Both the position numbers and the translations under genes were made by a program. DNA of 64,000 nt from Sclerodactyla briareus. Taxonomy: Eukaryota > Echinodermata > Holothuroidea > Dendrochirotida > Sclerodactylidae. Shown here in pieces: positions 16,104-54,584 of the stretch. Location: positions 110,001 to 174,000 of the forward strand of contig JAODTK010001166.1 in assembly GCA_026419785.1 (NCBI GenBank), given 5' to 3'. Under the pieces are notes generated by a model that was not told the DNA's origin, did no database searches, and worked only from the letters and a program-made list of their open reading frames with translations. The first letter of the stretch is position 1, and every line of letters begins with the position of its first letter.

Positions 16104-16138
<35 letters not shown>
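16104..16138 (+). repeat. 35-base poly-C run
   Basis: An uninterrupted run of 35 C, the longest homopolymer in the window. The opposite strand is G35, which can form quadruplex-type structures. Its exact length is likely unreliable in any assembly. Confidence 0.95.
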
Positions 16139-16479: not shown

Positions 16480-18503
16480 TTACTCAGTTATGAAGACCCC
16501 CTCATCACCGAGGTCTCCACTAGTAGACTTAACAACCATTGCCTTCGTACTTTCACTCTATCACAAACCTTCCCTCCATCCATGCATACCGTCTTGAAAG
16601 TTGCTCAAGGCTTCCATTTGAGGCTTTTATGTCCCCTGCAATTTAAGAGGCGCATCGGTTTATGACGGCCCGAGGCGGCTGCGTCCATGATTCGACATGA
16701 AAAGTGGACTTTTCGTACGCTCTTGGAAGCTGGTATTTTCTTGGAAAGCCCAGATCGAAAATTATCGCCCGCTTGTTTCCTCACATGGGATGCGTCTCTG
16801 TCGGGTGGCAAGGCGTAAGGATTTTGGAAGTTCTGATCTGACTCGGGCAAATCTGATTTAGAAAAGGATCGGTTTTCAGCTCACTCCCCCCAGTTTCCAA
16901 ATCGCAACAACAGGCGCCAGTAGCACGTTGGATCCTCTGCTTTGCTAGTGACGCGATTACAGAACTTAGTTCTGCATCGTCTGTTGTGCTATTCTCTCCA
17001 TTTATTTTTGGCTTCTCTCTCATCCGCTCGTTTTTTCGCCACACCAGGTATCATAGTGAGTGTTTGCCCTTCTGATGATCACTTCCGATTGATTTATCAT
17101 TCTTCTCAGGATGTATTAAATGTTTCGCGTTTCTTCATTTTGACTTTCTTTTTCTTGAGGAGGGATCCGACAGTTGTGTCTTTTCGTGGATTGGCATCCC
17201 CTCTACTCATTGCAGTTTTTATTCTCTTCTTCTAACTTTTTCTTTCTCTCTAGTATCTCATTTTTCTCCGTGTCTGTGGTGTCTGACCTTCCTCTCCTCT
17301 CTTCCCAAGCAGCAACCCTTTCCTTGATTCAACCATTCTCTCATCTTTTCTGCTACTCCTTCTCTCCTCTGCCAGACGTTCTACTCGTCTTCTTCTTCCT
17401 TTTTTCTACTCGCTTCTGATGTCTAATAGCCTTCTTCTTTCTTTTCAACCACGAATTTAATCGCCGATGTCGGTAGTTCAGTTTATGAGCAGAGCTCCTG
17501 GACTCGTCTGCTTCTGGGTGATTCACGCGGATGACCCTTCTGTTATCCTTGTGTGTTCCTTCTCCGTTCTGTTGTTGGTGTCCTGATCGTTTTCCAGATT
17601 TACTTCTCACCCCAGATCTCCGACCTTTCCTCGTCTTCGTCAATTTTTTCCCTGTTCTCTGGGAATCACCACCACCATATTGCCCTGGTCTAGGACTCCC
17701 GAGAAGCTCCATCAGGACTTCATTTTCCAGGATGATATGCATTGGCACATTCCTGCCCTCGGCCTCACAGAATTGGTACCGTTCTGTTCTAGTGATGAAG
17801 CAACTCCGTACTCCACTTCGGTGGAACAATCGAGTGGTTCATGAAAGGTCACGTGCTTCTTGGATCTGTTACGCTGTTCTGAATGGGAATTCACCTCAAC
17901 AATATCTCCTGCCTCACTCTCTCTACATGTTTTCTCATAGAAAGATAAGCAGCAGTCTCAGCCACAATCTCCATCTCACCTTCTGCCACAAATCCTGGAG
18001 GCATAAATGCCATCCCTGTGAACTCATGCTTTCAGGGCTATCTCCGATAAACACCATCCAGAGAGGTTCCCCGACTCTGGCATACACCTTGCCGGCGGCA
18101 TGTAAAACCCCATTCTGAGATCCATTGAGGTTTCTCGACCGTTTCTCGGAGGATACTAACTGGTCGACATTTGACACTCTCGGGGTAGGCATAGTGCTAA
18201 ACGGCCTTGAAGTCCTTGGTGGTCGGTGGTCTTTCTGGGAACTATTGACAATAACCCCTTTTTTCTAATTCGTTTGAACTTTCTTGCTGCAGGCAACGTT
18301 TGCTGTGCCACAGATGAAAGGACGCCCTTCTCCAGATGTTGAAGGGCTAGCAGCCGCCCAAGCTCCTCGTATTTCTTTCTCAGTATATCTTTGGCATCTC
18401 CATCCTCAGAAAGTCTCAATTTTCTTTGATTTTCTCTAGGCGGCGATGTAGTGAGTTTCTTCAAGATCCTCCGTGCATCGAAATGAGCATGTTGCTGAGC
18501 CAT
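16480..18503 (-). CDS. Uncharacterised basic, low-complexity protein (frameshifted, apparently intronless)
   Basis: The minus strand opens at ATG 18,503 (GCCATGG context) with MAQQHAHFDARRILKKL and a charged segment containing KKYEELGRLLALQHLEKG. Protein-like sequence continues for about 2 kb if the frame is allowed to change at about 18,250, 18,015, 17,900, 17,755 and several more times between 17,350 and 16,550. A plausible TAA lies at 16,480-16,482. The middle part includes GKVYARVGEPLWMVFIGDSP and MAFMPPGFVAEGEMEIVAE. The C-terminal half is rich in K/R/S/E, suggesting a disordered, possibly nuclear, protein of about 670 residues. Just upstream, a good acceptor (CTCTCCTCAG then exon at 18,541) and a strong donor (GGAG|GTAAGG, intron from 18,609) suggest a 68-bp 5' UTR intron. 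I do not recognise the family. A retroelement ORF is possible, but I saw no retroelement motif. The frameshifts could be assembly errors or decay. Confidence 0.55.
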
Positions 18504-18639
18504 GGCATTACTGGACGATGAATCAACGTGTAAATGAGTGCCTGAGGAGAGGAAGAATCGAAATTAATTTGCTAGTATCCCATTGCCCTACACAAGAACC
18601 TTTCCTTACCTCCTTGAATAACTAGAAAGCCAAGAGGCT

Positions 18640-20010
18640 TATGATTTCTTGACTCACAGTCTCACATGAACACCTAACTCCAGCTCGATGGGACCGAGAG
18701 TTCTTGACTTGATATCGTGTCCACGCGGTTTGCAGACTGTGACATATGCTGACCTCAGATGACCTTTGACCTGACCACAAAACAATCGTAATCATGTTCT
18801 TATCATGGGGACCCACATATCAAGTATGATTGATTTTTGTTTGAAAGTGATCCCTGCTCTACAGGAAAACAATAGGGTTCTTGTACTCCCATGAGAAAGC
18901 AGCATGCCAGATTACTTATCGTGTCCACAAAAGGTTTTCAGACTGACTTCTGGTGAATAGATGGCATTTGACCTGACCCCAAAACAATAGGGATTATGTG
19001 CTCACCATGGGAAACCACACATACCGACTACCGAGTATGAGCTTGATTCATCAAGGTGGGGTCAAGTTATTGTGTCCACAAGCTAAAATTGGCTGAAATT
19101 TTCCATTTTCACAAATTTTCTTTTTTTGACCAAAATTCACTCCCGATCTAAACCAGACACAATAGGGTTCCTGCACTCCCCTAAGTAAGCTACATACCAA
19201 ATTTCAACCTGATCAGCACCAACCTTTCTGGACTTATCATGTTTTACAAGCATTTTCTGACTTTGACCTCTGTTAACCTCAGATGACCTTTGACCTGACC
19301 ACAAAACAATCGTAATCATGTTCTTATCATGGGGACCCACATATCAAGTATGATTGATTTTGTTTGAAAGTGATCCCTGCTCTACAGGAAAACAATAGGG
19401 TTCTTGTACTCCCATGAGAAAGCAGCATGCCAGATTACTTATCGTGTCCACAAAAGGTTTTCAGACTGACTTCTGGTGAATAGATGGCATTTGACCTGAC
19501 CCCAAAACAATAGCGTTCCACTCCCCATAAGAAACATATACACCAAATTTCAATATCATCAGACCCACCACTCTGGACATATCATGTTTACGAGCATTTC
19601 CAGACTTTGACCTCTGTTAACCTCAGATGACCTTTGACCTGAGCCAAGGAAAAAGGCGCATGTCATGGGGAACCCACATACCAAGAATGAGCTTCATCCA
19701 TCTACTGTATGTGGGGTCGAGTTATCAGTTACACGCCAAAATTGGGCAAAAATTTTGATTTTCCACAAATTTTCTTTTTTTGACCGAAATTCACTCCGAC
19801 CTAAACCAAATACTTTAAGGTTCCTGTACTCTCCATAAGGAAGAAAGCTACACACCAAATTCAAACCGGATCAGACCAACCATTCTGAACTTATTGTGTT
19901 TACAAAGATCTCGGACTTTGACCTCTGGTGACTGATGATTTCATTTGACCCTTGAACAATACGGATCATGTACTCATACACACACACAACATGACTGCAT
20001 AGAATCCTCT
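18640..20010 (+). repeat. Tandem array of ~300-bp units (AGGTCA-rich family), ending in CA tract and hairpin
   Basis: Landmarks recur at intervals: CCTCAGATGACCTTTGACCTGA (about 18,751, 19,270, 19,620), ACAATAGGGTTC, CATGGGGACCCACATA and GGTCGAGTTAT. A ~500-bp block is duplicated nearly exactly (18,750-18,990 against 19,270-19,510). The array ends with ACACACACA (19,979-19,988), CATGACTGCATAGAAT and a CTGAC-TTT-GTCAG inverted repeat. Two minus-strand frames starting MGPHDKNMITIV are simply the duplicated block and not genes. Confidence 0.85.
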
Positions 20011-24770: not shown

Positions 24771-24971
24771 CACCAATAGGTCCATTGCATCATTGACAGG
24801 CCATGACACATGACTGACACAAAGTGTCATACAAGTTCCTTCAGGATTTCAGTCAATCAGTCTTCTTCCTTTTATCACCTCTCAGGAATACTGTATGCAT
24901 CAGTTGTTGTTGTATGTACAACGTAACAACCAACATGATTAAAAAATTCCCATACTTTTTCTATTTTGCAG

Positions 24972-25864
24972 AGTCTGGAGAACATCTGTAATGGTATGGC
25001 AGGGGCAACCTATTTCCCGAGGCGTTACTATGACGATACCCATATACCCATGACAGCCCATGAAAGGGACTTCCTCGATACCCCTCAGAGGACATATCAG
25101 ACGGCCTTCCGCCCAAGACCCCAGCAGAGTCGGGCTGGGAGGCCCATGCCTCCCTCGGCCTCCTCCATGGACATCAATCACCGCCTGAGGACACACCCAC
25201 GGGAAACACCCACACCAAATCCATCCATGCCTTTTCACCTGTGGATAGAGACCAGTCGTCGGTCTCGGCCTTCACCGCCAAGGTGGGACCCAGAATACAA
25301 CAGCAACGTCTGGCGCAATTTCAGTCATGGGAAAGGTTACACTATCGACTCCCCTGGACGGAAGATTACCGAGGCTATTGCTCTGAGTTACCCACTCAGG
25401 ATCCCGCCCCCCTCAGCGCTGGGTCCTAACACACTGACCAAATACATCTCCGAGTCTAACAAGGTCATTAAGACCCAAAGAGAAAGAACATGGTCCTGGC
25501 GAAGTCCAAGAGAGAGCTTAAGGAATTCAAGCTGCTCAAGCTCCGCAGCCAGATGAGAGTTCCTCCGATGGATGGAGATGGGAACATCCTGCCTCCAGAG
25601 GGCATGAAGTCCCACGACCACCCGGAGGTCAAGCTCCCGGAGACCAGGACGGTCTCTCTGAGGCTGCAGGAGGAGCACGAGAGGGACCTGGACCAGCACG
25701 TGATGGGTACCCATCGGACCACGCCCACACACCTCTGGAGGCTCTCCTTTAAGGACAATAACCCAGAGTACGAGCAGGTGATGAGAGGACAAGTTGCCCG
25801 AGGGAGTCCAGTCTCCATGAGAAGTTCCTTGAGCTTCAGGCCTTCTGAGATCTACTTCAAGTGA
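24972..25864 (+). CDS. Terminal coding exon of an unidentified protein, with one internal frameshift
   Basis: A polypyrimidine tract and TTTTGCAG precede an exon opening in frame with SLENICNGMAGATYFPRRYY. The frame continues with QRTYQTAFRPR, WDPEYNSNVWRNFSHG, ITEAIALSYPLRIPPP and LTKYISESNKVIKTQRE to about 25,487. It then slips by one base and continues as NMVLAKSKRELKEFK, DGDGNILPPEGMKSH and LWRLSFKDNNPEYE to TGA at 25,862. Codon use and composition are protein-like throughout, and longer than chance. The change equals one missing base near 25,480-25,490, and no slippery heptamer is present. A second slip near 25,800 is possible, because another frame reads SSLHEKFLELQAF and then a stop. 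Upstream exons were not found; ATG 24,996 is the first in-frame ATG. The Pro/Arg/Tyr-rich, motif-poor style recalls small ciliary or sperm microtubule inner proteins (SPMIP8/TEPP comes to mind), but that is a guess. Confidence 0.75.
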
Positions 25865-26250: not shown

Positions 26251-26464
26251 GTTCTGGGCAAGAACATGCTTTTTGAGGCCTGGATTAACAATTATGGACA
26301 GTTTGAGCCTTGAATCACAACAAGAAAGCCACTGGCTTTGTAAATCTTTGCCTGGAGGACTGGATTGGGCCCTGTAGTAGTTGTTGGCACCCTCCACTGA
26401 TGTCGTCAAATTTGTTGAAAATCGGTCCTACGATTGTTGAAATATTGACATTTTTTATTTTGCT

Positions 26465-27640
26465 TCTAAGCCCCGTCCACTCATGAATATTAATCAGATT
26501 AGCACCAAAAACAATAGAGACCATCTCCTCACTATGGGGCATTCACCACTCAAGTATGGAAGCAATACCTCATTCTTTTTCCTCTCATCGTGTTCATTAG
26601 AATTTATTGGCACAACTACTGTAAGCCCTGCTTCTTATGAATAATAATGAGGACCAACAGTATTCCCAGGCTACTTCACTGATGTCACCAAAACAAGTTC
26701 AATGAAAATCCGACCCACAGTTGTCAAGATATTGAAATTTTAGGATTTTGCTTCTGAGCCCCGTCCACTCATGAATATTAATCAGATTGGCACCAAGAAC
26801 AATAGAGACCATCTACTCATTATGGAGCATTCACGACCCAAGTATGGGAGCAATACCTCATACTTTTTCCTCTCATCGTATTCATTAGAATTTATTGGCA
26901 CAACTACTGTAAGCCCTGCCCTTATGAATGATAATGAGGACCAACAGTATTCGCAGCAGACCTCACTGATGTCACCAAAACAAGTTCAATGAAAATCCGA
27001 CCCACAGTTGTCAAGATATTGAAATTTTAGGATTTTGCTTACGGGCACCACCCGCTCATGAAAATTAATTAGATAGGCACCAAAAATGTTAGAGACCATC
27101 CACTCACCATGGGCCGTCCACCATCCGAGTATGGGAGCACAACCTCCTTCCATCTTGTATTTATCGTGTTCACCACAATTTTTCTGCTAAACTCCTTTGA
27201 GCCCCGCCTCCCCCTCTTATTGGATATCTTGAGGAACAACAGTACAATACCAAAGTATCTGTTGGCCCACCTCACTGATGAAAACAGTATAATTGAGATA
27301 TCAACATTTATGATTCTGCTTCTAAGCCCCAACCCACTCATGAATATTAATTAGATTGGCATCAACAATAGGGACCACGTACTCCCAAGTATGAGAGCAA
27401 TAGCCCTTACTCTTCCACTTATCGTATTCACAAGAAATTTTGAGGTTTTGCTTCAAAGCTACGCCCACTAATGAATATCAATTAGATTGGCACTAAAAAT
27501 AATAGGGACCGTCCTTCTCAATATGGCACATCTACCAAAATCTACCAAAATCTAGTACCAAGTATGAGATCAGTCGACCTTGCGTCTTCCACCTATCACA
27601 TTCACAGGAAAGAGACACACACACACATGCATGACTACAT
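26465..27640 (+). repeat. Tandem array of ~285-bp units, ending in CA tract
   Basis: The unit landmark CCACTCATGAATATTAAT recurs at about 26,476, 26,764, 27,053, 27,332 and 27,467 (the last unit is shortened). Other shared words are ACAATAGAGACCATC, CAAGTATGG-AGCAATACC and TTCAATGAAAATCCGACCCA. The array ends with GAGACACACACACACATG, CATGACTACATAGATTCC and a degenerate inverted repeat. This is the same tail style as the unrelated ~300-bp family at 18.6-20.0 kb. Confidence 0.85.
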
Positions 27641-31646: not shown

Positions 31647-31749
31647 TCAGCAGGGTGCAACCTCCTCTCCCTTGGGTACTTCTGTGGGGTCTAGTCCCAA
31701 CTGTTTCATTTTGATGGCGGTCTCAAACAAATAGTCGTAGCTCTCACAC
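31647..31749 (-). CDS. APIP: APIP exon 8 (terminal)
   Basis: Acceptor CTTCCTCTTCCAG, then [33 protein letters not shown] and TGA at 31,649-31,647. This is the usual C-terminus of the family. No canonical AATAAA is close downstream; an ATTAAA lies near 31,260 on this strand. Confidence 0.93.
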
Positions 31750-34700
31750 CTGGAAGAGGAAGCGATAATAAGAGCTGTGACAGGGATCTTCAGAGGGCGC
31801 TATTTTAATGCAGTGCTGCCCGGGCACTTGGTAAACATCATCAGCTATGACCTTTTTAATCCCTCTACACCATGGTTTCCCAAACGTGGGGTTGTGACCT
31901 CAACTGGGGTCGTGTTTCAAATATATTTTTTTTAAATCTGAGGATGCCTTAAATTACCCGAATTTTGATCGTGTCACAGTCAAAATCCTACAAAATTTAC
32001 TCTGAAAACCTATATTTATTGTTTTATTAGCAGCCGTTCTAGCGCTTTTCCTGAGTGAATTTGATCTTTTTTGTTCAATTGTCGCTGGCCACCCTGCTTC
32101 TGTATATTCACTATATTGTTTTCACATACAACTAAAGTACTCTACTACAGGTAAGTGGATGCCTGCACAACTCCATTATTCTGGAGACACAACTTGGGGT
32201 CGCACTCGGATGGCGCTACATGAAATGGGGTCCCCGCGTTGAAAAGTTTGAGAACCACTGCCCCACACCCTAATGTGTAGCACTGGTCCCTGGTAATACC
32301 GAACCATGATCACCAAAATTGAACTGTAGAAGAAAAAGTCCACACGCACCAAGTTTTGTGCATATCGAGCAAGTTTTTTTGTTTTGGTTTTTTCTTTTCA
32401 CGTACAACTTGCAAAATAAAGAGCAGCAGTCATGGCACAAAGGGCAAGGAAATCTCAAAGAATGACCAAAGCTATGTAACCCTAGACTAGATCTGACTCA
32501 CAACTTCATGAACACCCAAAATGTCCCTTGTTAATTGTTGAATTGTGTGGACCAAGTTTCACATTGTCCAATCTAACAATACAACACGAGTAGCGATATA
32601 TTGAAGCAAGTTTGAACAGACAAATAGACACAATTAGGAACATAAAGACACAGAATACATGTACAAACACAAAAGCTCAATCAGCCATATAGCCGAAGTG
32701 AGCTGAAAACGATCGCTCATTGTGTGAATGGAAAGAGGAGAAGGGGGAAAAATGCGGTCATGGCCAAAATGTGGGGGGAGGGGGGCAAAATTATCAAGAG
32801 ATCACAAATTGTGCCTAGGCAATGGAACCATGGCAAAAAAAAGTGGGGGACGAATGCCCCTGCTGGGAATTTAGACTTCAGCCACAAATGACCTTTTCCA
32901 AATGATCTGAAACAATTGGTTGAGTAATAGGTCAGTTCTTGTGTTCACACAAAAGAATTGGCTAGAATATCACATTTCACAAATTACCTGTTCCCCACCC
33001 CCTAACAAAACCCTCCTGCTAAAAAAAATCTCTTGGTCCTCAACCACAAACAATAAGGAAGCTACACACCAATTTCAACTTGTTTGGGATAAGAAGTTCT
33101 AGAATAATTACGGTTATACGGTTTTCAGACTTTGAACTTTGTTGATCTCTGAACCTGACCACAACCAAATGTGCTGGCAAACTCATCATGGGGGCCACAT
33201 AAGCTTTATTCTCCAGGTCCTGCCAAGTTATGTGTTTACCCAACGCGGAGCAGATGGACAAACATAAACAAATCAAGCCAAATATCCAAATTTCACTAAT
33301 TCTTCATTTTAATCCAAAAATGACCCTCTACGGAAACCATAGAATTCTTGCATCCCTTTGACTCTATATGCCCTTTTAAAAACATTCAATTTTCAATCCC
33401 TGAACACCTGATATTGTACACCACTAGTCAATAATACAATGACTAGGTAACATGGTAATCCAATCTAATCTGTAGAGGAATTTGCCTTCAAATTTCTCTT
33501 GCAATAACCTATTGAGCCTGTACAATGATCTCTGACCCAAAATTCCTAGCTCAACGTGCCCCTCTAATGACATTTGACTGTACATTCATAAACACTCCAT
33601 AGGTACCACTAACCAACACTGATAACAATGACCAAGTATCATAATAATCCACCTAATCAGTTGGAGAAGGAACATTTTTCTGTTGCAATTTCCACATAAT
33701 AACTTATTGTCTTTCTCACCCCATAGGTACCAGTTTTCAATGAAAACAAAGACCCAAGTTTCAGTATGATCCCACCAAATCTTAAGAAGCATTTTGTAGG
33801 TTCTCAGAAAATGACCCATTGAGCTTGTGTCAAGAATTTTCTGCTTTTTAAAAGTCAAATTCTGATTTGTTCTGCTTTTTAGGGACCAAATTCCGCTTTA
33901 TATTTATATTTATTTTCCGCCTTCTTAAACGTCTAGGTTATTGAGCGTATGGCACACACTGACGTTGAGCTAAATCCCTGATGCACAATGTAGCCTACAG
34001 TAGAACTGTGCATTTCGCACGTGTTGTGTTCGGGAAGAATCTACAGTGATGCCACTCGTGCCCTTGCAATACACATGATGTGATTCGATTTAGTTAGAAA
34101 TGGACAGTAATAAATCAAACTTGATAACAAGTAACACGTACATAGAATGTTCTTGATCTCATGGCAGCAATCATCTGGCAGTGCGCAACAAACTTTCGGC
34201 CACATTTTTCGGCGATAGATGCAAAATTTGTACGTGAATAATGGCAAGCCCCCGGGTTAGAGTTCACTAGGCTACTACAACATGAGTACATGGCCGGATG
34301 CCGATGCTAAGTGCTTTCCCCACTTACGGCACTGCATAATTCACAACAGTGGCGTAGCTTTTTTTCGAGATTCCCGACTAATAAAAAAATGTTTTCGTTG
34401 AATTTTAACATGGACTTAATGGATTGGAAAGGTTTAGCAGCACGATTGCTCGCGTGATTGCCATTTTTAATTTATTGTGATTTTGTGATTTTTTCAAGGA
34501 ATTTCGCAAATTTTAAAGGTTTTTTTTTCTTTTCAAGCAGAATCATGCTTTCCGCCTTTAAAACTCAAATAATACAGAATTCCGCGATTTCCGCGGATTT
34601 TCCGCGAGGCGGAAAATTCTTGACACTACATTAAGCCCCTCGACCTTGAGGGGTCAAATATGTCCCATGGCCCAATGACATCTGTCAACAAACAAACGTT

Positions 34701-37700
34701 TCGCGTAAAAACAAGGCGATCACCCCAGTGTCTAGCCTGGTTGCGTGATCAGTGGTTTCCTCTATAGTCACCATGCAAACAATTACAAGGCATTCCATGT
34801 GTCGCTTGAAGATTCCGGATTCAGCATTAACAGAAAAATCTTACTAATCAGTGACCCATTTCACATTCGACAAGGACTCTTCAATTATGGCAAATGTAGG
34901 CAATTTACAAAGTTTCACGAAAATCTGGCAAACTTCAAAATTTACACATAAATGATCACTTAGACCATTGAATGAACTTCCAGTGACCCTGAATCCATTA
35001 TAATTTTTTTTGGAACCCATACCCACCAGGTTTCATGAAAATCCGCACAACTTGAAAGATTTTGCATGAACTATGCAATTAAGGTATTTGGAATGCCTCC
35101 GTTGACCCCCAAATCTGGTTGAAAAGTTTTCCGGATTGAAGGTAGACTATATTCACCAAGTTTCGTGGAAATCTGACAAACTTTCGAATTTCGCATGAAT
35201 TATGCAAATTAGACAACTTAATCACCATATTTCAAGATGAAAATCTAATCCGTTCATATACCTTATATGCCAAACCCCGTCACCATAGCACCTACGATTC
35301 ATCTGTAATCTTGCTAACGATCTTAAACAATAAATTACATGAAATAATGAATTTGTCAAATTGCAGCTTACCGTTCGAAAGATACCTGCTAACGAGAAAG
35401 TGTGACACTCCACACACATACACACAATGCACACACCACGGCATAGGACCACTAAGTCTCTGCCTGAATTCATTCATGGGAGACAAAAGTTACAGATGGA
35501 TGTACAGACAGACAGACTGATGAAGACCGGCTTACTTACTTAGCATTCCCTCCATGTATCCGCCCACACATAGATACCATGCCTCCTTACTATAACAGCA
35601 TTGGTGTCAGGATAGTCTTGAAGGGCCTTCTCCATGAGATGCTGGGATTAACCACAAAATCACTTATACCTTAATAACAATAACTAGTGCTTATATAGCG
35701 CTTTACAAATCACAACTACTTGAAGTATCTACAAAAAAGGTAGGTCTTATAAAAAAAAAAAGGTAGGACTTACATACAGTGAACATTAATGTTTAGGGCC
35801 ATTTAAGGTTTACTGAAGGTCATTATAGGACAAATTTTGATAGTATTGATTCTGATTTTTCTGGAGGGCCATATCTAACAAAATCCAGTCTTTTTGAGCA
35901 CACTGTAACCTATGCTATGCTAACTCCAGTTAATTTGCACGGCAAGCGAATTTGGTGCAAATCGCAGGTTCAGTGAATTTCATCTCTTCTTGGTAAAGCT
36001 TAACAATTCTTGGTTATCATTATTATCGCATGTTTGAATTGGAAATGATTTATGTTATTCCCTGTCATGTACCATACCTTTTCCATTGATTTTGCTGTTG
36101 TAGTAGTAATCCATTATAATAGGCTCAGAAACAGTGCATTCAGTGTGGGCGAATTTTTTTTTATGTAATTACTGAAAGAGAATGAACATATAGCAAAACG
36201 CTGATACAGAGCGACTCCCAGAAACTTACGTGGTTTTCGGGTCCACGAGCGACGACGACCTCCCATACATTTATCAATATTTCTCCTGATAGACAGTATA
36301 ACTTGAGGTGGAACAGTAACGTGTCCCCACCCCCCCACGATACTGTAGGTACTCACAATGATACGACTCTCGTCATGGAAGTTCTGTATGATGGGGACAA
36401 CAAGCTCACTATTCGTATCTGGAAAAGAAAATGACAATCATTTGTGCGGAATCCAAGGCGATCGCCCCGGTGTTTCTCTTGGTTGCGCATCGTGTTTACT
36501 TCTCCTAGTAGTTACCAGGCAAACAATTACAGGCATTCATGGTCGCTTAAGATTTCGGTATTAGCATTGTAACATGACCAGCCTACTAATAGAGACTAAT
36601 TTCAATTTCGAAAGGACAATTGACAATGTCTACTAAAGTAGTAAAAGTTTCGTGGAAAAGGGACTGAAATTGCCATTCAGGCGAGACAAAAAGCATAATT
36701 TCAACATTAGGTGGCATCTCTGAGGAATGCTATTTATGATGTTGAGGCTCTTAGTACTTGACTCATTTATTGCATTAAAGAGTGTCATGGATCAATATCT
36801 TTTCAGTGAAGCAAGTACAATAAAAGTAAACTACAGTTGACCCTGTCAGAGGCTCTTACTCTTCCTTTCCTAAAGGAGATTACGCTAACCACTACAACAA
36901 TTAGTATACTATACTTATTTGAAAGCCATGAAGTTGTCATGCCACTTGCTCTCTACACCTATACAGGGCCCACACCCACTACTCATACCACCCACCCACA
37001 CCTATACAGGGCCCACACCCACTACTCATACCACCCATCTGCTTTCTACACCTATACAGGGCCCACACCCACTACTCATACCACCCACCTGCCCTCTACA
37101 CCTATACAGGGCCCACACCCACTACCCATACCACCCCCCTGCCCTCTACACCTATACAGGGCCCACACCCACTACTCATACCACCCACCTGCCCTCTACA
37201 CCTACACCCCTCCCACATCCACTATTCATACCATCTACCTTCCCCCTATGCCTATACCCCTCCCACATGCCCTACCCATACCACTTACCTGCCCCCTATG
37301 CATATATACTTTTGTGAGTACCATGCTAGGCTGAGGACAAAGGCAAGAACGGTCCCCCTCCCCGCTCCATCACCACTCTCTCCAGACCTACACCCCTCCC
37401 TCCGAACATACCCCCCTCACCGCAGGACCTACCCCCTCCCCCAGAACTTACCTGCCTCCTACCCCTCTGATCATCTGTATGGGTGATGTGGAATTCATTA
37501 CCGGGGTAAAGCATGCTGACAAGGACAGATGACGGTGAATGTGTGTAAAAGACGGCCCCGGGAGCTGTGAAACAATGGAAGCATGGCATTTGATCAGGTT
37601 TTCAAAATTGTTCATAGATTCGAGGGCCTTCCCTTCCACAATTTCTTTGAGTTTTTCAAAGTTACCACCAATAGGGGTCATTGCCTGAAGCTTGTGGTAA

Positions 37701-40700
37701 AGGCTGTAGATTGGATATTCAGAAGTATATCATCTCGCAGAGAGTCTTAACGATGGAATAGAGCCTTCATGAGGATGCATTTCTGTCTAATAGTGTGATG
37801 CATTCAAGCAACCGTCTTGAATTTTTTTTTCAAGAATATGGGCGAATTCTTTAGGCATAGCCGTCAGTCCCCCGTCTAACCCATGCCAGCATGGAACATT
37901 GAGGATAAACTGTCTATGATGTTTATGATGATGTTTCCTCTCTTTTGGGATGGTGTGTGGTTCAGGTTTTCTCATGAGGATTTTGTCCTTCCTGACCCTT
38001 TTTCACTAAACTAAACTAAACTAAACTACCAATTAGCAATCTTCTCCAGCCTGTCCCGTGTCAATCGGGCCACTACACAAGGATTGCATACCCTCTTTTT
38101 AGGCCATAAGGACAGACCTGCTGTCCTTGTCCTGAAAAATCCATGAATGGAACAACTTCTCTAGACATACATCGATTCAGAATCAAACTGCTATCATTAG
38201 ACACTTGGATGTTCTATTCCTACAGGCCTGGTACCGATAAACTGTCATTGGCTGCCAAACCCATAATGGGTCCGCTTCTATACTACACCCTGCTGGAATG
38301 TTGACCGAATTCACTCAAGGTTCAAGGTCAGCTAGCAGTGTGAGCCCCTCCATGTGGCAAAGTGAGAGGTGGGGTGGGGGGAGGGGGTATGGATGGTTTT
38401 CAATCCAAAAACGTCAAAGTCATCGGAAGCACTACCAACAATAAAGCTAGAAGGCTTAGTGATCCTTGACTGTTTTCTGTCAACCCATAGCCAGACACAC
38501 GGACAAATGGGAGATAACCAGCTCATTATAGGCAACATACATCTGACAAATTCCTATCTTTACCAAGCAACGATAGGGTTCCTGTATCCTTGGTAGAGAG
38601 CTACACACTTAATTTCAAAAGTTTTTAGACTTTGAACTCTGGTAACCTGAGTGACCTCGCCCTGACCCCCAAAACCATAGGGCTCATGTACTCATCATGG
38701 GGAATAACCAAACCAAGTATGAGCCATCATTCACACCCCGCGCCTTTACCAAAACAATAGGGTTCATGTACTCCCCATAAGAAGATACCACACCTAATTT
38801 CAACCTGATCAACCAACCGTTTCTCGACTTATCGTGTTACAAGGTTTTTAACTTTGACCTCTGGTGACCTCTGACCTGACCCCAAAACAATAGGGTTCAA
38901 TGGCACTCATCATGCGGAACACACATACTAAGTATGACTTTCATCTCCCGGTGGGGTCGAGTTACGTGTTACAACCAAAAATTGCCAAAATATCAAATTT
39001 TCACTATTTTCTATTTTCGACCAAAAAATCACTCCCGACCGTGACACCAAAAACAATCGGGTTCCTGTAATTCCCCATAAGAAATCGACACAATACACCT
39101 AATTCCAACTTGATCAGACCAAACATTCTGACTTAACGTTTACAAGGTATGTCCAGACTTTTGACCTCTGGTGACCTCAGATGCCCTCTGACCCGGACCC
39201 CAAAACAATAGTTTTCATGTACCATCATGGGGAACACAACCTACCAAGTATGACTCATCCCTTGACCAGGTGGGGTTCGATTTAATCGTGGGTTTACCAA
39301 GGCCAAAATATCGATTTTTTTCACAAATTTTCCCTTTTTGACCAAAATTCATCCCCGCGTGAACCAAAAACAATAGGAGTTCCTGTACTCTCTCCCCATA
39401 AGAAAGCTATACCCTAATTTCAACTTGATCAGACCACCATTCCTGGACGTAACGTGTTGACAACGTTTTTCAGAACTTTTGACCTCTGCTGAACTCAAAT
39501 GACCTCTGACCCGACCCCAAAACAATAGGGTTCATGTATCCTCATGGGGAACACCATACCAAGTATGAGCTTCATCCATCCAGTGGGGTCGAGTTATGTG
39601 TTTACAAACCAAAATTGGCAAATTATCGAATTTTCAAGCCAAATTTGCTATTTTTGACCACAATCAACCGAACCTGAACCACAACAAGAGGGTCCTGTAC
39701 TACCCCATAAGAAGAAAGCATACACTATTTCAACTGATCAGACCCCCTTCTGGACTTAACGGTTTACAAGGTTGGTTTTCAGACTTGACCTCTGGTGACT
39801 CAGAAGACCTTGACCCGACCCCAAAACAATAGGGTTCATTACTCCTCTGGGGAACACACATACCAAGTATGGCTTCATCCATCCAGTGGGGTCGGTTATG
39901 GTTACAATCCAAAATTGGTCAAATATCGAATTTTTCACAAATTTTCCTATTTTTGACAAATTCAACCCGACCTGAACCAAAAACATAGGGTTCCTGTCTC
40001 CCCCTACGAAAGCTATACACCTAAGTTCAACTTAATCAGACCAAATATTCTGGACCTTATCATGTTTACAAGTTTCCAAACATGCCCTCTGGTGACCTCA
40101 ATGACCTCTACCTGACCCCAAAACCATAGGGTTATGAACTCATCATGGGGACCACACATACCAATATGAGCTTACCATCCTCCGGTGGGGTCGAGTTGAT
40201 CGTGTTTACAGCCATAATTTGGCCAAATATCGATTTTCACATTTTTCTAATTTTCACCCAAATTCACTCCCCGACCTGAACCAACAACAATAGGGTTCCT
40301 GTACTCCCCTAAGAAAGCTATACAACCTAATTTCACTTGAGCAGACAACCTTCTGGACTATCCTGTTTACACGGTTTCAGACTTTGAACTCTGGTGACCT
40401 CCGATTACCTCTGACCTGAACAAAAAACAATAAGGTTCATGTCTCATCATGGGGAACACACATACCAAGTATGAGCCCGGACGTGCCCAGACTGATTAAG
40501 GTTATCGTTGTTTACAAGCTGGGCGTCACACAAACCACACACACACACACCAACACACCACCCGCACACCACACACACACACACGCACCACATCCACACA
40601 CACACACACACACAACACACACACACACACACACACACCAGTGATGCATCAGATTCCTCTGACTTCGTCAAGAATCAAAAAGTGGGGAGCATATCCTCCC

Positions 40701-43700
40701 CAATCTCCCAATGAGATTCTAGAAGCCTGACATAGGATTTACACCCTTGAGATGTCCGCACATTACCACCAAGCAGACTTGTTAGTACTCGAGTACGTAC
40801 TCGTACTTGAGTCCGTACTTGAGTACATTTTATTGTAATCGTATCATGGGCTATGTACTCAGTAATCGAACTCAGCTCTAGGAAAATTGACCTTTACTTT
40901 ACTTTTCGTACTCATGGGTTGTCTAATGTACTAGTATTCCTAGTGATGTACTCGTACTCGGTTCAAAAATCCAAAAATCATAGATGTGTAGCATAATCAC
41001 TGTATTAGGCGATAAATATAGTACTTAGTCGAGTGCAGCTCGAATAATTTGTGGAGTCGTACTACATATGTATCCAAAGTGGTTAAGAAAGCGTGGCTGC
41101 TTTGCAGCGATGGCGGGCAAATGCTACCACCTTGCCCAGCCTTCAGAAAAGTTAGTCGCAGTACCAGAGCAGCGAAAGAAAACATGGCTGCTTACAACAT
41201 TGACTCGGCATCGCTGAGCACTAGTTGGAAATACGAGGCGAGTTATTGCTCTGGTGCTCATCCCCCCCCACATCAGCATGGGTGCTCAGGGTTTGGTCAG
41301 TTTGAGCCATTTGAGCCTGAACTCATAGTCTCAGATTATTATTTATTAACCATACTGTGCGCCGGAAAACTGGTAACTCTGGTAGTGTTTTGTGTACTAG
41401 TATCGTGTTGTACTCGACTCATCAGTCCGTACTCGTACTCAGCTTTCGGAAAACTGTGTACTCGTACTCATGGGCTTCAAAAAAAAATCAAGTAATATTC
41501 GGGACCCAACCTCAATTGCGCATTTTCAAACTGCGGTTGACCTGCCCACTAATTCAGACTTTTTTTTTTTATCAGGAAGTAATATAACAGGTACAAGAAC
41601 ATTACTCAATCTATACTGAAAACATGTGATTGGACTATAAAGAACAATTTTCGGAGTTAGGTACCAGCTTAGGCTACCAAATTAGTGTGGCCCTAGGTAT
41701 AGAACAGGTGCGAAATGAGGGGGTTGAGGATACTAATGTATCAGCTATACGTAACCATGAAAGGGCGAATTGTGTACTGGTGTAGGTATTAGTTAGTGAA
41801 TTAATATAAAATTCGAACGAATCACGATTTGTCGACAACATTGCCTATTCAATGAAACAGTAGTATCAAAATCTTTACCTCTGTGTTTGTAGGCCACCAT
41901 CATGAGGGGGGCACAGGAACTTCGTTTTCAGTTTTTGGCTTTTGGTGGCTCTTCAGAACCTCCTTCTCACATTGACAAAAAACAGTTCGTCTCAGGCTGC
42001 AGGCAACACCAAGATCGGAACTAACTATAGAGAGTGGAACTGGTAACTCCGTGCAAACTAGAGCACCAGGGGGACAGAGTTCAAACGAAGAATATTCTTT
42101 TCAGGAGCAATTCACTTCCATGGAACAAATGCAAAATAGGTACAACCTTTAACTGTGAATTCCTGAACAACCACTAGTTACAACTGATAAATGACAAGGT
42201 ACCCCTTGGTCTGATGATAGTAGTGTAGCCAGGATCTGACTTTTTAAGTCACCCAAAGATTATAGCTGCGGGTAAGCAGCTTTTCAAGTCATCATGTCTT
42301 CCCGTCCGTTCGTTCGTCCGTTAGGTTTGGTTGTTAGTTCGTTTCGTTCTGTTGTCGCGTTCATTCATAACATTTGAACCGTACATGCGATCAGATTGAA
42401 ACTTGGTGGGTGTATAAAGCATGCACTGGCTAGCTTAGTTTACATTTATGTTTGCATAGTGTGATTAGATTTTAATTAAATACAATTAATTACCCCAATT
42501 TGTCCACCCACAGCCCTTCCCACTGAACTCTCTTTGAGAGTGGTTTGTTTACATTATTCCCTCGAGCTGCAGGCCTGGCTGCTAGTATTGGAAAATCATT
42601 TGCTGACCAATGATTGGAGGAGAGCAAATGTTTCTTCTATTTCAAGGAAGGCAATCGGTCTCTTCCTTGTATTACAGGCCATGAGTCTTACTTGTGTTGT
42701 CTGCAAGGTGTTGGAATCCATTATTCGGGATCACATTGATTGATTTTGATGATGACTGACTACTACCAACCTTAACTTTCTCTTTCTCCACCCCAGAAGG
42801 TGTTACATAGATTCTCTCCCTGGAGAACAAAACAAACAGGAGTAGTGTTGACAAAGTTAAAAAATTTGGAAGAATCAATAGCATGTACTGGTGACAGACT
42901 ATAGATACACTAGCCTGTGAAAAACATGCTATACCTCTAGTCAGAATGATGGGGTAGCCAACCAAAATTTTTGTGTAATTGCCAGATGTTCGATAGTAAT
43001 ATGTGAAATAGATTGAGAAAATCATCAATTCATGGCAAATGCTAAAATCTGTGTACAGTGCGCTGTTAAATCCACTTTACACTTGCCCGCATTAGGGTCC
43101 CTGCATAGTTTGCGCATTTGTTCCTACTAGTTTGTGCCAATGCAGGAACTGGCAGCGTGCAGAAAATGTGGGCCATGGGTTCATTGCGTGACAAAATTTT
43201 CAAAATGTTCTAAATTTGGCCATGACGAAAATTTCGAGAATGTGTTGCAAACATTTCGTAAGCTGTATACAAACTATCGGCGAACTAGTCGTGGCAGCTT
43301 GTGCCATGCGTGCCTATCAAAACAGTAGTACATACTTCATGACTAGTTCACGACTAGTTCATGAATAGTTTACGACAAGTGGGGCAATCTTCCTGCATCA
43401 GCTGTGCATGGTTCCCACACAGGTTTCGATGGCGATAAGTTTTGAACTATGCATGCGCAATGATGATTGAGAGTGATAACCATTTTGTGACAGTGCATGT
43501 CCTGTTGATTACGCATACTGGCATGCACTGTCACGCCACAGTGGGGGTAATGCGGTACCCAAATTCGTGCAAGAGGGGACTTTAGGTGATTGCATTTTAT
43601 GCCTGAATCTGTGACCTCCTGGTTCAACCATATTCAAAATGTGGGCAATGGGCTGTTTTCCCTACACCATTTTCTTGGAAGTCTTGGTATGTCTGACCCA

Positions 43701-46700
43701 GGGATCAAACCCCTGACCTCCCACTGCTGGTCTGATACTTGGGACAATCGATCACACAGTTGGTTTTACGTAATAATATTCAGTATATTTTATCTGGTCA
43801 TATTACCAAGTGATTCACTGGTTTCAGTGCTGGTAATTAGAGACCGGGTACAACCCCCGAGACTAATCACTGCTATCCCAGAGATTGAGTTGCTGCTATC
43901 CCGCCTTCCGGAGATTGAGTCGGTGCTACACTCCTACACCAGAGATCGAGTTGCTGCTATCCCGGCGCTTGAGTTGCTGCTATCCCAGAGATTGAGTTGC
44001 TGCTATCCCAGAGATTGAGTTGCTGCTATCCCGCCTTCCGGAGATTGAGTTGCTGCTATCCCAGAGATTGAGTTGCTGCTTTCCCAGAGATTAAGATGCT
44101 GCTATCCCAGAGATTGAGTAGCTACTATCTTGAAGATTGAGTTGCTGCTATCTGGGAGATTGAGTTGCTGCTATCTGGGAGATTGAGTAGCTGCTATCCC
44201 AGAGATTGAGTAGCTACTATCTCAAAGATTGAGTAGCTACTATCTTGAAGATTGAGTTGCTACTATCCTGAGATGGAGTGGCTGCTGTCCTGGAAACAGG
44301 GTTGCTGCTATTCTGGAGATTGAGTTGCTGCTATCTGGGAGATTGAGTAGCTGCTATCCCAGAGATTGAGTTGCTACTATTCCGGAGATTGAGTTGCTGC
44401 TATCCCAGAGATTGAGTTGCTGCTATCTGGGAGATTGAGTAGCTGCTATCCCAGAGATTGAGTTGCTACTATTCCGGAGATTGAGTTGCTGCTATCCCAG
44501 AGATTGAGTTGCTGCTATCCCAGAGATTGAGTAGCTACTATCTCAAAGATTGAGTAGCTACTATCCTGAAGATTGAGTTGCTGCTATCCCAGAGATTGAG
44601 TTGCTACTATCCTGAAGATTGAGTTGCTACTATTCCGGAGATTGAGTTGCTGCTATCCCAGAGATTGAGTAGCTACTATCTCAAAGATTGAGTAGCTACT
44701 ATCCTGAAGATTGAGTAGCTACTATCTTGAAGATTGAGTTGCTGCTATCCCAGAGATTGAGTAGCTACTATCTTGAAGATTGAGTTGCTGCTATCCCAGA
44801 GATTGAGTTGCTACTATCCTGAAGATTGAGTAGCTACTATCTTGAAGATTGAGTTGCTACTATCCTGAAGATTGAGTAGCTACTATCCTGAAGATTGAGT
44901 AGCTACTATCTTGAAGATTGAGTTGCTACTATCCTGAAGATTGAGTAGCTACTATCCTGAAGATTGAGTTGCTGCTATCTGGGAGATTGAGTAGCTACTA
45001 TCCTGAAGATTGAGTAGCTACTATCTTGAAGATTGAGTTGCTACTATCCTGAAGATTGAGTAGCTACTATCTTGAAGATTGAGTTGCTACTATCCTGAAG
45101 ATTGAGTTGCTACTATTCCGGAGATTGAGTTGCTGCTATCTGGGAGATTGAGTAGCTACTATCTCAAAGATTGAGTAGCTACTATCCTGAAGATTGAGTT
45201 GCTGCTATCCCAGAGATTGAGTTGCTACTATCCTGAAGATTGAGTTGCTACTATCCTGAAGATTGAGTAGCTACTATCTTGAAGATTGAGTTGCTACTAT
45301 CCTGAAGATTGAGTAGCTACTATCTCAAAGATTGAGTAGCTACTATCTCAAAGATTGAGTAGCTACTATCCTGAAGATTGAGTTGCTACTATCCTGAAGA
45401 TTGAGTAGCTACTATCTCAAAGATTGAGTAGCTACTATCTCAAAGATTGAGTAGCTACTATCTCAAAGATTGAGTAGCTACTATCTCAAAGATTGAGTAG
45501 CTACTATCCTGAAGATTGAGTAGCTACTATCTCAAAGATTGAGTAGCTACTATCTTGAAGATTGAGTTGCTACTATCCTGAAGATTGAGTTGCTGCTATC
45601 CCAGAGATTGAGTTGCTACTATCCTGAAGATTGAGTTGCTACTATCCTGAAGATTGAGTAGCTACTATCTCAAAGATTGAGTAGCTACTATCCTGAAGAT
45701 TGAGTTGCTACTATCCTGAAGATTGAGTAGCTACTATCCTGAAGATTGAGTTGCTACTATCCTGAAGATTGAGTTGCTGCTATCCCAGAGATTGAGTAGC
45801 TACTATCCTGAAGATTGAGTAGCTACTATCCTGAAGATTGAGTAGCTACTATCTTGAAGATTGAGTTGCTGCTATCTGGGAGATTGAGTAGCTACTATCC
45901 TGAAGATTGAGTTGCTGCTATCCCGGAGATCGAGTAGCTACTATCTCAAAGATTGAGTAGCTACTATCCTGAAGATTGAGTTGCTACTATTCCGGAGATT
46001 GAGTTGCTGCTATCCCAGAGATTGAGTAGCTACTATCCTGAAGATTGAGTTGCTGCTATCCCAGAGATTGAGTAGCTACTATCCTGAAGATTGAGTAGCT
46101 ACTATCTCAAAGATTGAGTAGCTACTATCTCAAAGATTGAGTAGCTACTATCTTGAAGATTGAGTTGCTGCTATCCCGGAGATCGAGTAGCTACTATCTT
46201 GAAGATTGAGTTGCTGCTATCCCAGAGATTGAGTAGCTACTATCTTGAAGATTGAGTTGCTACTATCCTGAAGATTGAGTTGCTACTATCCTGAAGATTG
46301 AGTAGCTACTATCTCAAAGATTGAGTAGCTACTATCCTGAAGATTGAGTAGCTACTATCTCAAAGATTGAGTAGCTACTATCTCAAAGATTGAGTAGCTA
46401 CTATCCTGAAGATTGAGTAGCTACTATCTCAAAGATTGAGTAGCTACTATCCTGAAGATTGAGTTGCTGCTATCCCAGAGATTGAGTAGCTACTATCTCA
46501 AAGATTGAGTAGCTACTATCTCAAAGATTGAGTAGCTACTATCCAGTTGGGGTTATCATTTTTTAAAGCAAAATTTGTCAAAAGATTGTTAACTTTTGCA
46601 GTTCTCCATCAAAAATGAACCTCGGCCTACACCAAAAATATCAGGGTCTAATACTCCTCATAAGAAAACGACTCACCAAATTTCAAAACTTATTCAGAGG

Positions 46701-47685
46701 ACCATCATTCCAGTCTTATGTTCACAAGGTGTTTTGACTTTACATGGCCTTTGACCAAACCCCCACACGGAAAGGGTCCATGAGAGTACTTGTCATACCT
46801 ACTGAGTATGAGCCTTATATATACATAAGTTGAGGTCACAATTCACTCATTTTCCACCATAAGCCATGATTAGTATGTTTTCAAGTTTGGGGTTGGTTAT
46901 CCTTGGTGGTCCCTTTATCAGCTGCCTATTCTTGAGTAAGTGATTGAGTGAGTGAAATGAGTGGGGGAGTGATCTCACCCTTGTCTGATAGACAGTGATC
47001 CCCCAGACCCTGTCATCCAGCCAAGAGAGTAGAAGAGACGGCCCAGCTCTGGTAGCACAGTACGGGGGTGGTCCTGTAGAAGAAAAAAAAAACACAGTAT
47101 GGAATAAGTTAACAGACATTAGCCCTATCAACATGGATATCAAAGATCATAATAAGGCCAATACCAGATGGTAAACTTTTGTATTTCAGCCTTTTTGGAA
47201 TCGCTCACCGACTCCCTAGTGGCTGCATTCTTGGCTAATGCTTGACTCACAAATGGGATAAATCCAATCGAAATTTACCCTCAACCGAAATGTACCTCCC
47301 ATCAGGACTAAACTACCCTTGGGCTATAAACAAACGTCATTGGCAGTTTCGGCCAACACGATTTTGAATGATAATGGCCCTCTTTAAAAAGGTGAAATCG
47401 CTCAAATTATGCACTCCCCCCAGGATGGAAGAAAAGAATTTAAATTATTCAGACAGGAAAAAAAACAAAAGCATAGAGATGAGTGTTACCTTGATGCATT
47501 TATATTGCATAATTAGGAATAGCCTGACTGATAAATTGTACACATCTGGTCTTCTATCGACATATTTTTTTTTTTTTATCAAACATTACACACGTCAATG
47601 ACGTCTTCATGAAATGAAATAAATGAAAAAAATTAAATTCTATGTAGTGCCCTACCTTGTCATATGTTTCAACTTTACCAGCCAT
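31647..47685 (-). CDS. APIP: APIP/MtnB, methylthioribulose-1-phosphate dehydratase (8 exons, whole gene)
   Basis: Cytosolic zinc enzyme of methionine salvage. It dehydrates 5-methylthioribulose-1-phosphate to 2,3-diketo-5-methylthiopentyl-1-phosphate; the mammalian protein also binds APAF1. Eight exons in order on the minus strand are 47,685-47,656, 47,073-46,979, 42,819-42,771, 41,996-41,879, 37,564-37,452, 36,418-36,357, 35,641-35,540 and 31,749-31,647. Together they encode about 223 residues (human about 242). Family landmarks are [35 protein letters not shown], a SSCAPLM segment (substrate-loop Cys), a FYTHS segment at the metal site, [25 protein letters not shown] (third metal His) and [21 protein letters not shown]. 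Introns range from 582 to 4,314 bp and are full of repeats. Four exons contain single-base frameshifts. Compared with other animals, about 7 residues are missing between exons 5 and 6, and the Lys-Thr-Met-Cys junction before exon 8 lacks two residues. The first His of the HxH pair reads Tyr. Family assignment is firm; whether the copy is functional is uncertain. Confidence 0.93.
31860..33030. other. APIP intron 7, left part: no element recognised
   Basis: AT-rich intronic DNA. Some words (GTTTGAGAACCACTG near 32,247) recall decayed transposon ends, but I cannot pair them. Confidence 0.35.
33040..33245 (+). repeat. Single diverged unit of the ~300-bp AGGTCA-rich family
   Basis: Contains AAGCTACACACCAATTTCAACTTG, TTTTCAGACTTTGAACTTTG, CTGAACCTGACCACAA, CTCATCATGGGGGCC and AAGTTATGTGTTTACC in the same order as the arrays at 18.6 and 38.6 kb. 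Confidence 0.75.
33380..33800 (-). repeat. Inverted relative of the GGTACCTATG tandem units
   Basis: On the minus strand the words TAGTGGTACCTATGGAGTG and GTACCTATGGGG recur in the same way as at 27,930-28,230 on the plus strand. Confidence 0.65.
33828..34625. mobile_element. MITE with TGTCAAGAATTTTC inverted ends, in APIP intron 7
   Basis: The left end TGTCAAGAATTTTCTGC (33,828) and the inverted right end GCGGAAAATTCTTGACA (34,609-34,625) match at all but one base. The interior, about 800 bp in total, repeats CCGCGGA-type words near the right end and has no coding frame. No clear target-site duplication is visible. Confidence 0.75.
34640..35520. repeat. Short tandem AGTTTCATGAAAATC-type units with CA-rich tail
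   Basis: About 120-bp units (AAGTTTCACGAAAATCTGGCAA, GGTTTCATGAAAATCCGCACAA, AGTTTCGTGGAAATCTGACAAA) at about 34,909, 35,028 and 35,160. They end in CACACACATACACACAATGC (about 35,410) and a GTACAGACAGACAGAC tail. The block at 34,700-34,850 recurs at 36,450-36,570. Confidence 0.7.
35540..35641 (-). CDS. APIP: APIP exon 7 (one extra base)
   Basis: Acceptor GTTAATCCCAG, donor TAA|GTAAGT. Encodes [18 protein letters not shown], then [12 protein letters not shown], including the third zinc-binding His. The exon is 102 bp where the flanking phases require 101. An extra G in AGGGAA just after the Trp codon would restore a NAK-type ending; as written the frame meets TAA. Confidence 0.9.
36357..36418 (-). 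CDS. APIP: APIP exon 6
   Basis: Acceptor CATTTTCTTTTCCAG, 62 bp, donor ATT|GTGAGT. Encodes [18 protein letters not shown]. The first bases read RYE when joined to exon 5 in its second frame, then need one base removed to reach SELVV. Either a frameshift or an unseen tiny exon between exons 5 and 6 explains this. Confidence 0.88.
36948..37310 (+). repeat. ~50-bp minisatellite in APIP intron 5
   Basis: About five good units of 50 bp (the first is 43 bp), built around CACCTATACAGGGCCCACAC then CCACTACTCATACCAC. Two decayed units follow. The plus-strand frames crossing it (up to 165 codons, T/H/P-rich) are a consequence of the repeat. Confidence 0.92.
37452..37564 (-). CDS. APIP: APIP exon 5 (metal-site exon, frameshifted)
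   Basis: Acceptor CCATTGTTTCACAG, 113 bp, donor CAG|GTAAGT. Encodes [20 protein letters not shown], then [10 protein letters not shown]. The frame then slips to MIRGVGG. The slip lies at the codon expected to specify the catalytic Glu. The metal motif normally reads HTHS and here reads YTHS. Confidence 0.9.
37570..38005 (-). mobile_element. Possible repeat with CCATGC/GCATGG inverted motif (APIP intron 4)
   Basis: The minus strand reads ATCATCATAAACATCATAG, then GTTCCATGCTGGCATGGGTT, a short palindrome with an ATC-repeat lead-in. I associate this arrangement with a repeat common in molluscan genomes, from memory and unverified. Protein-like frames follow ([20 protein letters not shown] at about 37,680-37,620) but match no family I know. 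Confidence 0.35.
38006..38030 (+). repeat. (CTAAA)n pentanucleotide repeat
   Basis: About five tandem ACTAA/CTAAA units. Confidence 0.9.
38560..40524 (+). repeat. Array of ~305-bp units (seven copies) in APIP intron 4
   Basis: The landmark TTTGACCTCTGGTGACCTC (with variants) occurs at about 38,633, 38,851, 39,158, 39,479, 39,783, 40,082 and 40,383; spacing is 299-321 bp except for one short first interval. Each unit holds two versions of AACAATAGGGTTC, one followed by ATGTACTCATCATGGGG and one by CTGTACTCCCCATAAG, so the unit is itself an old two-part structure. Units differ mainly by single-base gaps. Confidence 0.93.
40525..40675 (+). repeat. (CA)n tract and inverted repeat closing the ~305-bp array
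   Basis: About 110 bases of CA-rich microsatellite are followed by GATGCATCAGATTCC and a CTGAC-TTC-GTCA inverted repeat, then AATCAAAAAG. This tail has the same order of parts as that at 19,979-20,030. Confidence 0.85.
40770..41480 (+). repeat. GTACTCG-rich element, possibly hAT-related
   Basis: Two clusters of GTACTC/GAGTAC words (40,785-40,960 and 41,390-41,475) flank a unique middle. Clusters of this sort are common at the ends of hAT-type elements, but I could not define matching terminal repeats. Confidence 0.45.
41879..41996 (-). CDS. APIP: APIP exon 4 (frameshifted)
   Basis: Acceptor GTTGCCTGCAG, donor AGAG|GTAAAG. The total length (118 bp) fits the flanking phases, but the reading frame changes inside at least twice. 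ELFFVN, EKEVLK, PPKAKK and [13 protein letters not shown] appear in different frames. The conserved Cys of the C-x-P-L motif is present. Confidence 0.85.
42520..42745 (+). mobile_element. LINE reverse-transcriptase fragment (CR1/L2/Jockey-like)
   Basis: The frame reads [13 protein letters not shown], then [20 protein letters not shown]. This is the reverse-transcriptase entry block (W-x-ANV-PI-KKG, then SLT-VVCKVLE-II-H) with one frame disturbance in between. It ends just beside APIP exon 3. Related to the longer copy at 4,590-7,400. Confidence 0.85.
42771..42819 (-). CDS. APIP: APIP exon 3
   Basis: Acceptor TTTGTTCTCCAG, 49 bp, donor AAG|GTTGGT. Encodes [17 protein letters not shown], the phosphate-binding region of the class II aldolase fold. 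The LINE fragment at 42,520-42,745 ends only about 25 bp downstream of this exon. Confidence 0.92.
43590..43775 (-). mobile_element. tRNA-derived SINE head
   Basis: The minus strand from about 43,765 reads AACTGTGTGATCGATTGTCC, then TCAGGGGTTTGATCCCTGGG, an A-box/B-box arrangement with an anticodon-loop-like spacer. The body end is unclear. Confidence 0.55.
43856..46543 (+). repeat. 23-bp minisatellite, about 115 units, in APIP intron 2
   Basis: Uninterrupted 23-bp units with core GATTGAGT(A/T)GCT(A/G)CTATC and a variable five-base lead (CTGAA, TCAAA, TTGAA, CCAGA, TGGGA, CCGGA types). The left 250 bp is degenerate with longer spacers; the right end is uniform and stops abruptly at CTACTATCCAGTTGGGG. 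Leads and cores are linked: TCAAA is almost always followed by the palindromic GTAGCTAC core, and CCAGA mostly by GTTGCTGC. Block patterns recur. There is no open frame across the array. Confidence 0.97.
46555..46830 (+). repeat. Single unit of the ~300-bp family beside the minisatellite
   Basis: Contains ACACCAAAAATATCAGGGTC, TACTCCTCATAAGAAAACG, CACCAAATTTCAAA and GGCCTTTGACC-A-CCC in the family order. The minisatellite therefore abuts, or grew inside, a copy of this repeat. Confidence 0.7.
46979..47073 (-). CDS. APIP: APIP exon 2
   Basis: Acceptor TTTTCTTCTACAG, 95 bp, donor AGG|GTGAGA. Encodes [20 protein letters not shown], then [11 protein letters not shown], the conserved N-terminal block of the family. 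Ends with two bases of a Gly codon that exon 3 completes. No frameshift. Confidence 0.92.
47656..47685 (-). CDS. APIP: APIP exon 1 (start)
   Basis: ATG in a strong context (TTCACCATGG) begins [10 protein letters not shown], then donor AAG|GTAGGG. An acceptor-like TTTTTCTGCAG lies about 35 bases upstream of the ATG, so the 5' UTR may be spliced. Joins exon 2 in phase 0. Confidence 0.85.
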
Positions 47686-47739
47686 GGTGAATCACTGGTT
47701 CCTTATTCCTGCAGAAAAACAAAACAAAGTGGTTGGAAT

Positions 47740-53546: not shown

Positions 53547-54584
53547 TAGGGACTCGTTCTTGTGGCACTCTGCCCCTGCTGCCAGGATTGTTGATGTTGT
53601 TCTGTGGGGGAAGTACTGTTGTACCGATTCCTTCTGCTCCCCTCCTCCCTCAATTGATGTTTTGTGGGGGAAGTAGGCCTACTGTCATACCAATCCCTTC
53701 TGCTCCCCTCCTCTCTCCATTGATGTTGTGTTGTGGGGGAATTGTCCTACTGTCGTACCAATTCCCTTCGTTCCCCCTCCCTCTCCATTCATTTGACTTT
53801 CACTCTGCCCTGTACCGATGTTCACGAGAGAGCGGTTGTGACCCTGGGGTGACAAGGGTTACTTCGGGGGAGTAGCCATGGCCAAACCTATGCATCTGGG
53901 TGAATCCCGATAAGCGGGGTGCAAAGGGATGCCAAACCGGGAAGCATGGGTTGCCCTGAGTACTATCCACCCCCAACATTGGCATTATAATCTTCTTGAA
54001 AATAACTTGGCACCTGGGGTCGCTGATATGTTGGGGTACTTGCCCAATGTGCATGAGATTCACTGAAGGAGCCTCCCCTCTCCACTCATCTCGGAACTCG
54101 GTGCCCTTCTCATGACATCTCCATAGTGCAACATATAATTCAGAATAAAATTGGTGGATGACTTGATGACACAATACACTATCCACTGTCCTCAATCACA
54201 TATGGTACAACATGGGTTGACAAATGATGACGATAGAATTTGTATGGCTGATGAAAGATGACGATATAATATGAATGCAATTCGTGAAGGACGATTCAGA
54301 TGATGAATAGCATCTCAATAATGATTCTGATGATTGATGGTATACACAGCTCAATCCATGCAAATATTATAAGGCCCTCTATCAGTACAACTTGTAATAA
54401 ACCGCCAACGGTTAAAATGGTAATTATTTTCACAGCAACGTTTAAAAATAGCAATGCAAACTCTGTGAAAAATAATTGCCTGCACCACACCTGTAATTGA
54501 ATACACTACGATAATCTAAAAAAACACAACACTGAATGTTACAACGGGAGCTTCTGGCACGCTCCGAAATACCTCCGTCGCCAA

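Follow-up and report, generated by a model that had tools for sequence, protein, structure and literature searches.

A probable non-processed pseudogene of the methionine-salvage gene APIP in the holothurian Sclerodactyla briareus

Eight exons of the APIP family

The stretch of DNA analysed here, called the window, spans 64,000 nucleotides of Sclerodactyla briareus (assembly GCA_026419785.1, contig JAODTK010001166.1, positions 110,001 to 174,000). On its minus strand, eight exon-like stretches follow one another in the order of the APIP protein, from an ATG through a stop codon. The coding part of exon 1 (47656..47685) holds the ATG and ends on a GT border, and the exon probably starts at 47708, where a CAG acceptor directly precedes it. 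It is followed by exon 2 (46979..47073; tblastn E 8e-9) and exon 3 (42771..42819; E 0.066), both with an intact frame. Exon 4 (41879..41996; E 0.003) contains either two in-frame TGA or, in a frame-tolerant alignment, four frame changes. A frame change was also observed in exon 5 (37452..37564, near 37478), in exon 6 (36357..36418, near 36411) and in exon 7 (35540..35641, near 35542-35545), exon 5 additionally encoding a Tyr where the H-x-H motif would begin with His. Finally, exon 8 (31647..31749; E 2.6e-8) has an intact frame and carries the stop codon. These coordinates had been proposed in a reading of the sequence alone (hereafter the sequence-only reading), and they were borne out together with the GT..AG borders, present at all seven introns, and with the sizes given for the two smallest exons, 30 bp for the coding part of exon 1 and 49 bp for exon 3.

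That reading had also suggested, as a check, a splice-aware alignment of a metazoan APIP to the minus strand. Human APIP, whose sequence was checked against residues 20-242 of PDB 4m6r, was aligned by dynamic programming that took splicing and frame changes into account and allowed any GT/AG borders and introns of at least 40 bases. The spliced chain was recovered with a score of 486, while ten shuffled proteins reached 81.8-99.1, the reversed protein 98.9 and the plus strand 71.9, and human APIP was collinear with the locus across the whole protein; of exon 1, only the last two codons entered the alignment. The seven acceptors proposed earlier were all found again, as were five of the seven proposed donors. 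The donors of exon 5 (37452 in the sequence-only reading, 37429 in the alignment) and of exon 7 (35540 in one alignment, 35536 in the frame-tolerant one) are uncertain. A two-codon exon that the aligner put into intron 7 was taken as spurious.

In parallel, tblastn with human APIP matched six of the eight exons with E values not above 0.07, namely exons 2, 5, 7 and 8 at about 1e-8, then exons 4 and 3. Exon 6 was weak (E 7.4) and the 10 codons of exon 1 were without a match. Identity to human APIP/MtnB (PDB 4m6r) was 50-57% in exons 2, 3, 7 and 8, and 38% in exon 4. In a phmmer search, the first 67 residues matched 4m6r with an E of 3e-18. The NCBIfam model TIGR03328, whose curated cut-off is 137 bits, could be applied to fragments only and gave 40.5, 17.8 and 32.8 bits in three of five pieces and nothing in the other two. 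Judged by its collinear similarity to APIP, the locus belongs by descent to the APIP/MtnB family, and the strand, exon order and gene family assigned earlier were right. No second copy of the APIP exons was found in the window beyond matches of at most 16 bases, and prokaryote genomes scanned with human APIP yielded no confirmed relative.

Surroundings of the locus

Three tandem repeats lie inside APIP introns, as had been claimed. Intron 2 holds a 23-bp array of about 113 copies (43943..46544), intron 4 an old, indel-rich 304-bp array with 76% matches (38751..40476) and intron 5, between exons 5 and 6, a repeat at 36942-37298 whose 50-bp array of six copies (36998..37298) served as a local control for indel errors. 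The window also contains, on the plus strand at 24939-25861, a DUF4532 (PF15046) gene made of two long open parts with a frame break near 25472-25500. Its parts score 31.8 and 42.5 bits (cut-off 27) and cover profile positions 12-148 and 138-187. Of 488 open stretches with 50 amino acids or more, 29 were compared with Pfam, and among these DUF4532 alone exceeded its cut-off. Rfam gave nothing in the window at gathering thresholds.

Protein-like stretches in several frames were observed at 17200-18600 on the minus strand, perhaps another broken gene, and three pieces of this stretch had no Pfam match. An unbroken run of 35 C occupies 16104-16138. In 4-kb bins, the CpG observed/expected ratio ranges from 0.73 to 1.01 over the first 16 kb and from 0.18 to 0.62 at 16-56 kb, and TpG/CpA is raised in most of the latter region, which is perhaps a germline-methylated domain.

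Breaks in the reading frame

The sequence-only reading had described a complete gene with exons of shared phase. Neither description holds, since the eight exons spliced accordingly (672 bases) contain in-frame stops, frame changes fall within exons 5, 6 and 7, and the locus carries either a pair of in-frame TGA or some eight frame changes and has lost a zinc-ligand His. From exon 5 onward the frame is lost. As assembled, the sequence thus offers no open frame over the whole protein and, unlike human APIP/MtnB, is broken in exons 4-7.

Read in its entry frame, exon 4 shows TGA at 41969 and 41930. With the frame penalty set to 10, the top-scoring alignment is free of stops and shifts frame eight times, at 41990, 41979, 41947 and 41928 in exon 4, at 37478 and 37459 in exon 5, at 36411 in exon 6 and at 35542 in exon 7. 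At this setting all frame changes fall in exons 4-7, leaving exons 1-3 and 8 without damage. A penalty of 7 gave nine frame changes, a penalty of 5 fifteen (one in exon 8) and a penalty of 14 two plus the two TGA, so that the figure of about eight breaks depends on the penalty. In our reading, the change at 37459 vanishes if the exon 5 donor at 37452 is the right one.

Exon 4 is more likely to be read as piecewise matches in several frames than as an exon with two TGA. This rests on the penalty, as the TGA are preferred at 14 and the several-frame matches at 10 or below, and the stops were accordingly not retained as point mutations. The use of TGA as a sense codon was set aside because exons 5-7 also change frame.

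Zinc site and catalytic residues

In the window copy, a Tyr occupies the first of the two His positions of the H-x-H zinc site, a position that is His in all five relatives aligned (four from prokaryotes, plus human APIP). Human APIP/MtnB and the window copy share the second zinc-binding His and an HG motif further along, and the third His was seen in exon 7; the three zinc-binding histidines of a functional APIP are consequently not all present. Simultaneous replacement of all three zinc histidines by alanine is reported to abolish the activity of human APIP, and a conserved glutamate is named for the enzyme (PMC3532061). In the window, the place of the conserved catalytic glutamate coincides with the frame break of exon 5.

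Since no splice choice that was tried opens a full-length frame and a ligand is missing, the locus as it stands is predicted to make no APIP enzyme, and its metal site would lack one ligand.

APIP elsewhere in the genome

The 319-Mb assembly of the host (3171 contigs) was searched for other copies. The DNA of exon 2 matched itself alone. Human APIP gave six matches, of which four were in the window and two on contig C981. The sensitivity of this search is limited because exons 3, 4 and 6 of the window were not reported by it, and within that limit no intact APIP was visible in the assembly. In the 80 of 187 kb of C981 that were examined, exons 4 and 7 alone were recognisable, both open in frame. 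Exon 4 of this second locus (C981:70060-70177) has the same length as in the window, 118 bp, and lies between ACAG and GTAGGT, and its exon 7, extending up to 74969, is homologous to that of the window. Between the two loci, exon 7 shows 27 differences in 75 bases, distributed as 7, 5 and 15 over the three codon positions. This third-position excess (P 0.014) indicates that both exon 7 lines were long under coding constraint.

Pseudogene or assembly error

In its assembled form, the locus does not amount to a complete working gene; it is either the relic of one or a region that contains assembly errors. Non-processed pseudogenes keep their introns and have a disrupted frame. The window locus likewise has introns and, as assembled, a disrupted frame, and we consider it probable that it is a non-processed pseudogene of APIP. 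It departs from such pseudogenes in general in that no stops remain once frame changes are allowed and in that the damage is concentrated in exons 4-7. According to this scenario, an intron-bearing methylthioribulose-1-phosphate dehydratase gene, once functional, would have lost its function. Introns and splice borders would have been kept while small insertions and deletions gathered in exons 4-7 and one zinc ligand was lost. The breaks would then be real mutations and active enzyme would presumably not be made. No paper on an APIP pseudogene was found in a literature search, which is no proof of absence.

The main competing view is that the APIP gene works and that the assembly consensus has insertion/deletion errors in its exons 4-7, an explanation that is possible but doubtful. 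It would account for the occurrence of frame changes alone, with no stop at penalty 10, for the intact splice borders, start and stop, and for the restriction of the breaks to exons 4-7, exons 1-3 and 8 being undamaged. The same features speak against a pseudogene, as such a pattern was uncommon in simulated neutral decay with eight frameshifts. The probability of escaping any nonsense, splice, start or stop damage depended on the indel:substitution ratio assumed, being 0.009 at a ratio of 0.1, 0.025 at 0.15, 0.087 at 0.25 and 0.27 at 0.5. With five frameshifts it was 0.04-0.46. Assembly errors would also fit the frame break in the otherwise open DUF4532 gene, which in turn weakens the case for a pseudogene, as well as the failure of the genome search to reveal an intact APIP elsewhere.

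However, the density of breaks far exceeds that of the DUF4532 gene. At the rate of the latter, taken as 1 in 870, at least eight breaks in 672 bases would have a P of 1.6e-6 and at least five a P of 0.001. Moreover, all 22 windows along the 50-bp array, which lies between exons 5 and 6, are in phase. If this array broke as often as exons 4-7 (395 bases), such an outcome would have a probability of 0.002 with eight breaks and 0.02 with five. Along the 23-bp array of intron 2, phase is kept in 252 windows out of 254. It is because of this break density and of the preserved phase of the 50-bp array that a pseudogene is favoured over assembly indels. In addition, the Tyr that replaces the zinc-binding His is a substitution and not an indel, and the only other genomic locus found by human APIP is recognisable in exons 4 and 7 alone.

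The repeats do not all point the same way. The 304-bp array of intron 4 is off phase in 109 of 139 windows, and phase shifts were also seen in repeats at 26442-27146, 18729-19513 and 53614-53789, which counts against a pseudogene. By unit length, the arrays of 114 bp (6 of 6 windows) and 168 bp (11 of 11) are in phase, and those of 287 bp (18 of 38), 524 bp (14 of 23) and 66 bp (4 of 8) show windows off phase. Single-base shifts between repeat copies, real or not, therefore occur in the window. Homopolymer statistics by region gave nothing useful.

It is very unlikely that the locus is a functional, divergent gene in which other splicing, through small extra introns or other borders, restores the frame. 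The two ambiguous donors leave some room for it, but no path open over the full length emerged from an alignment in which any GT/AG borders were allowed and introns could be as short as 40 bases, and the frame changes lie inside exons 4, 5, 6 and 7. Finally, several exons are very short, but a chance run of unrelated exon-like stretches is refuted by an alignment with cheaper frame changes, which scored 480 against a maximum of 92 among 60 shuffles, and by independent tblastn exon matches of about 1e-8, ordered and on one strand.

Methionine salvage and implications

The fate of the rest of the pathway was approached by searching the assembly for two other enzymes. The Pfam ARD profile (PF03079) and human ADI1 gave no match in the assembly, an empty result that is no proof of absence. 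Human MTAP gave two weak matches (E about 0.95, 30-34% identical), each with an internal stop, at C2940:154598-154909 and C2932:519493-519633, which may be other phosphorylases or chance. A loss of methionine salvage from MTA, with both APIP copies being relics and ADI1 and MTAP gone from the genome, would agree with the damaged or partial state of both APIP loci and with the lack of a clear ADI1 or MTAP match. It is nevertheless unlikely, as the empty ADI1/ARD search shows nothing and MRI1 and ENOPH1 lay outside a search that covered ADI1 and MTAP, and it is put forward as a lead only. If true, MTA would be disposed of otherwise, or salvage would be left to diet or symbionts.

For annotation, the consequence is that a complete gene model at this locus would not be correct for the sequence as assembled. 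Should the breaks be real, the locus marks that this lineage lost an enzyme of methionine recycling; should they not be, it marks a poor consensus stretch.
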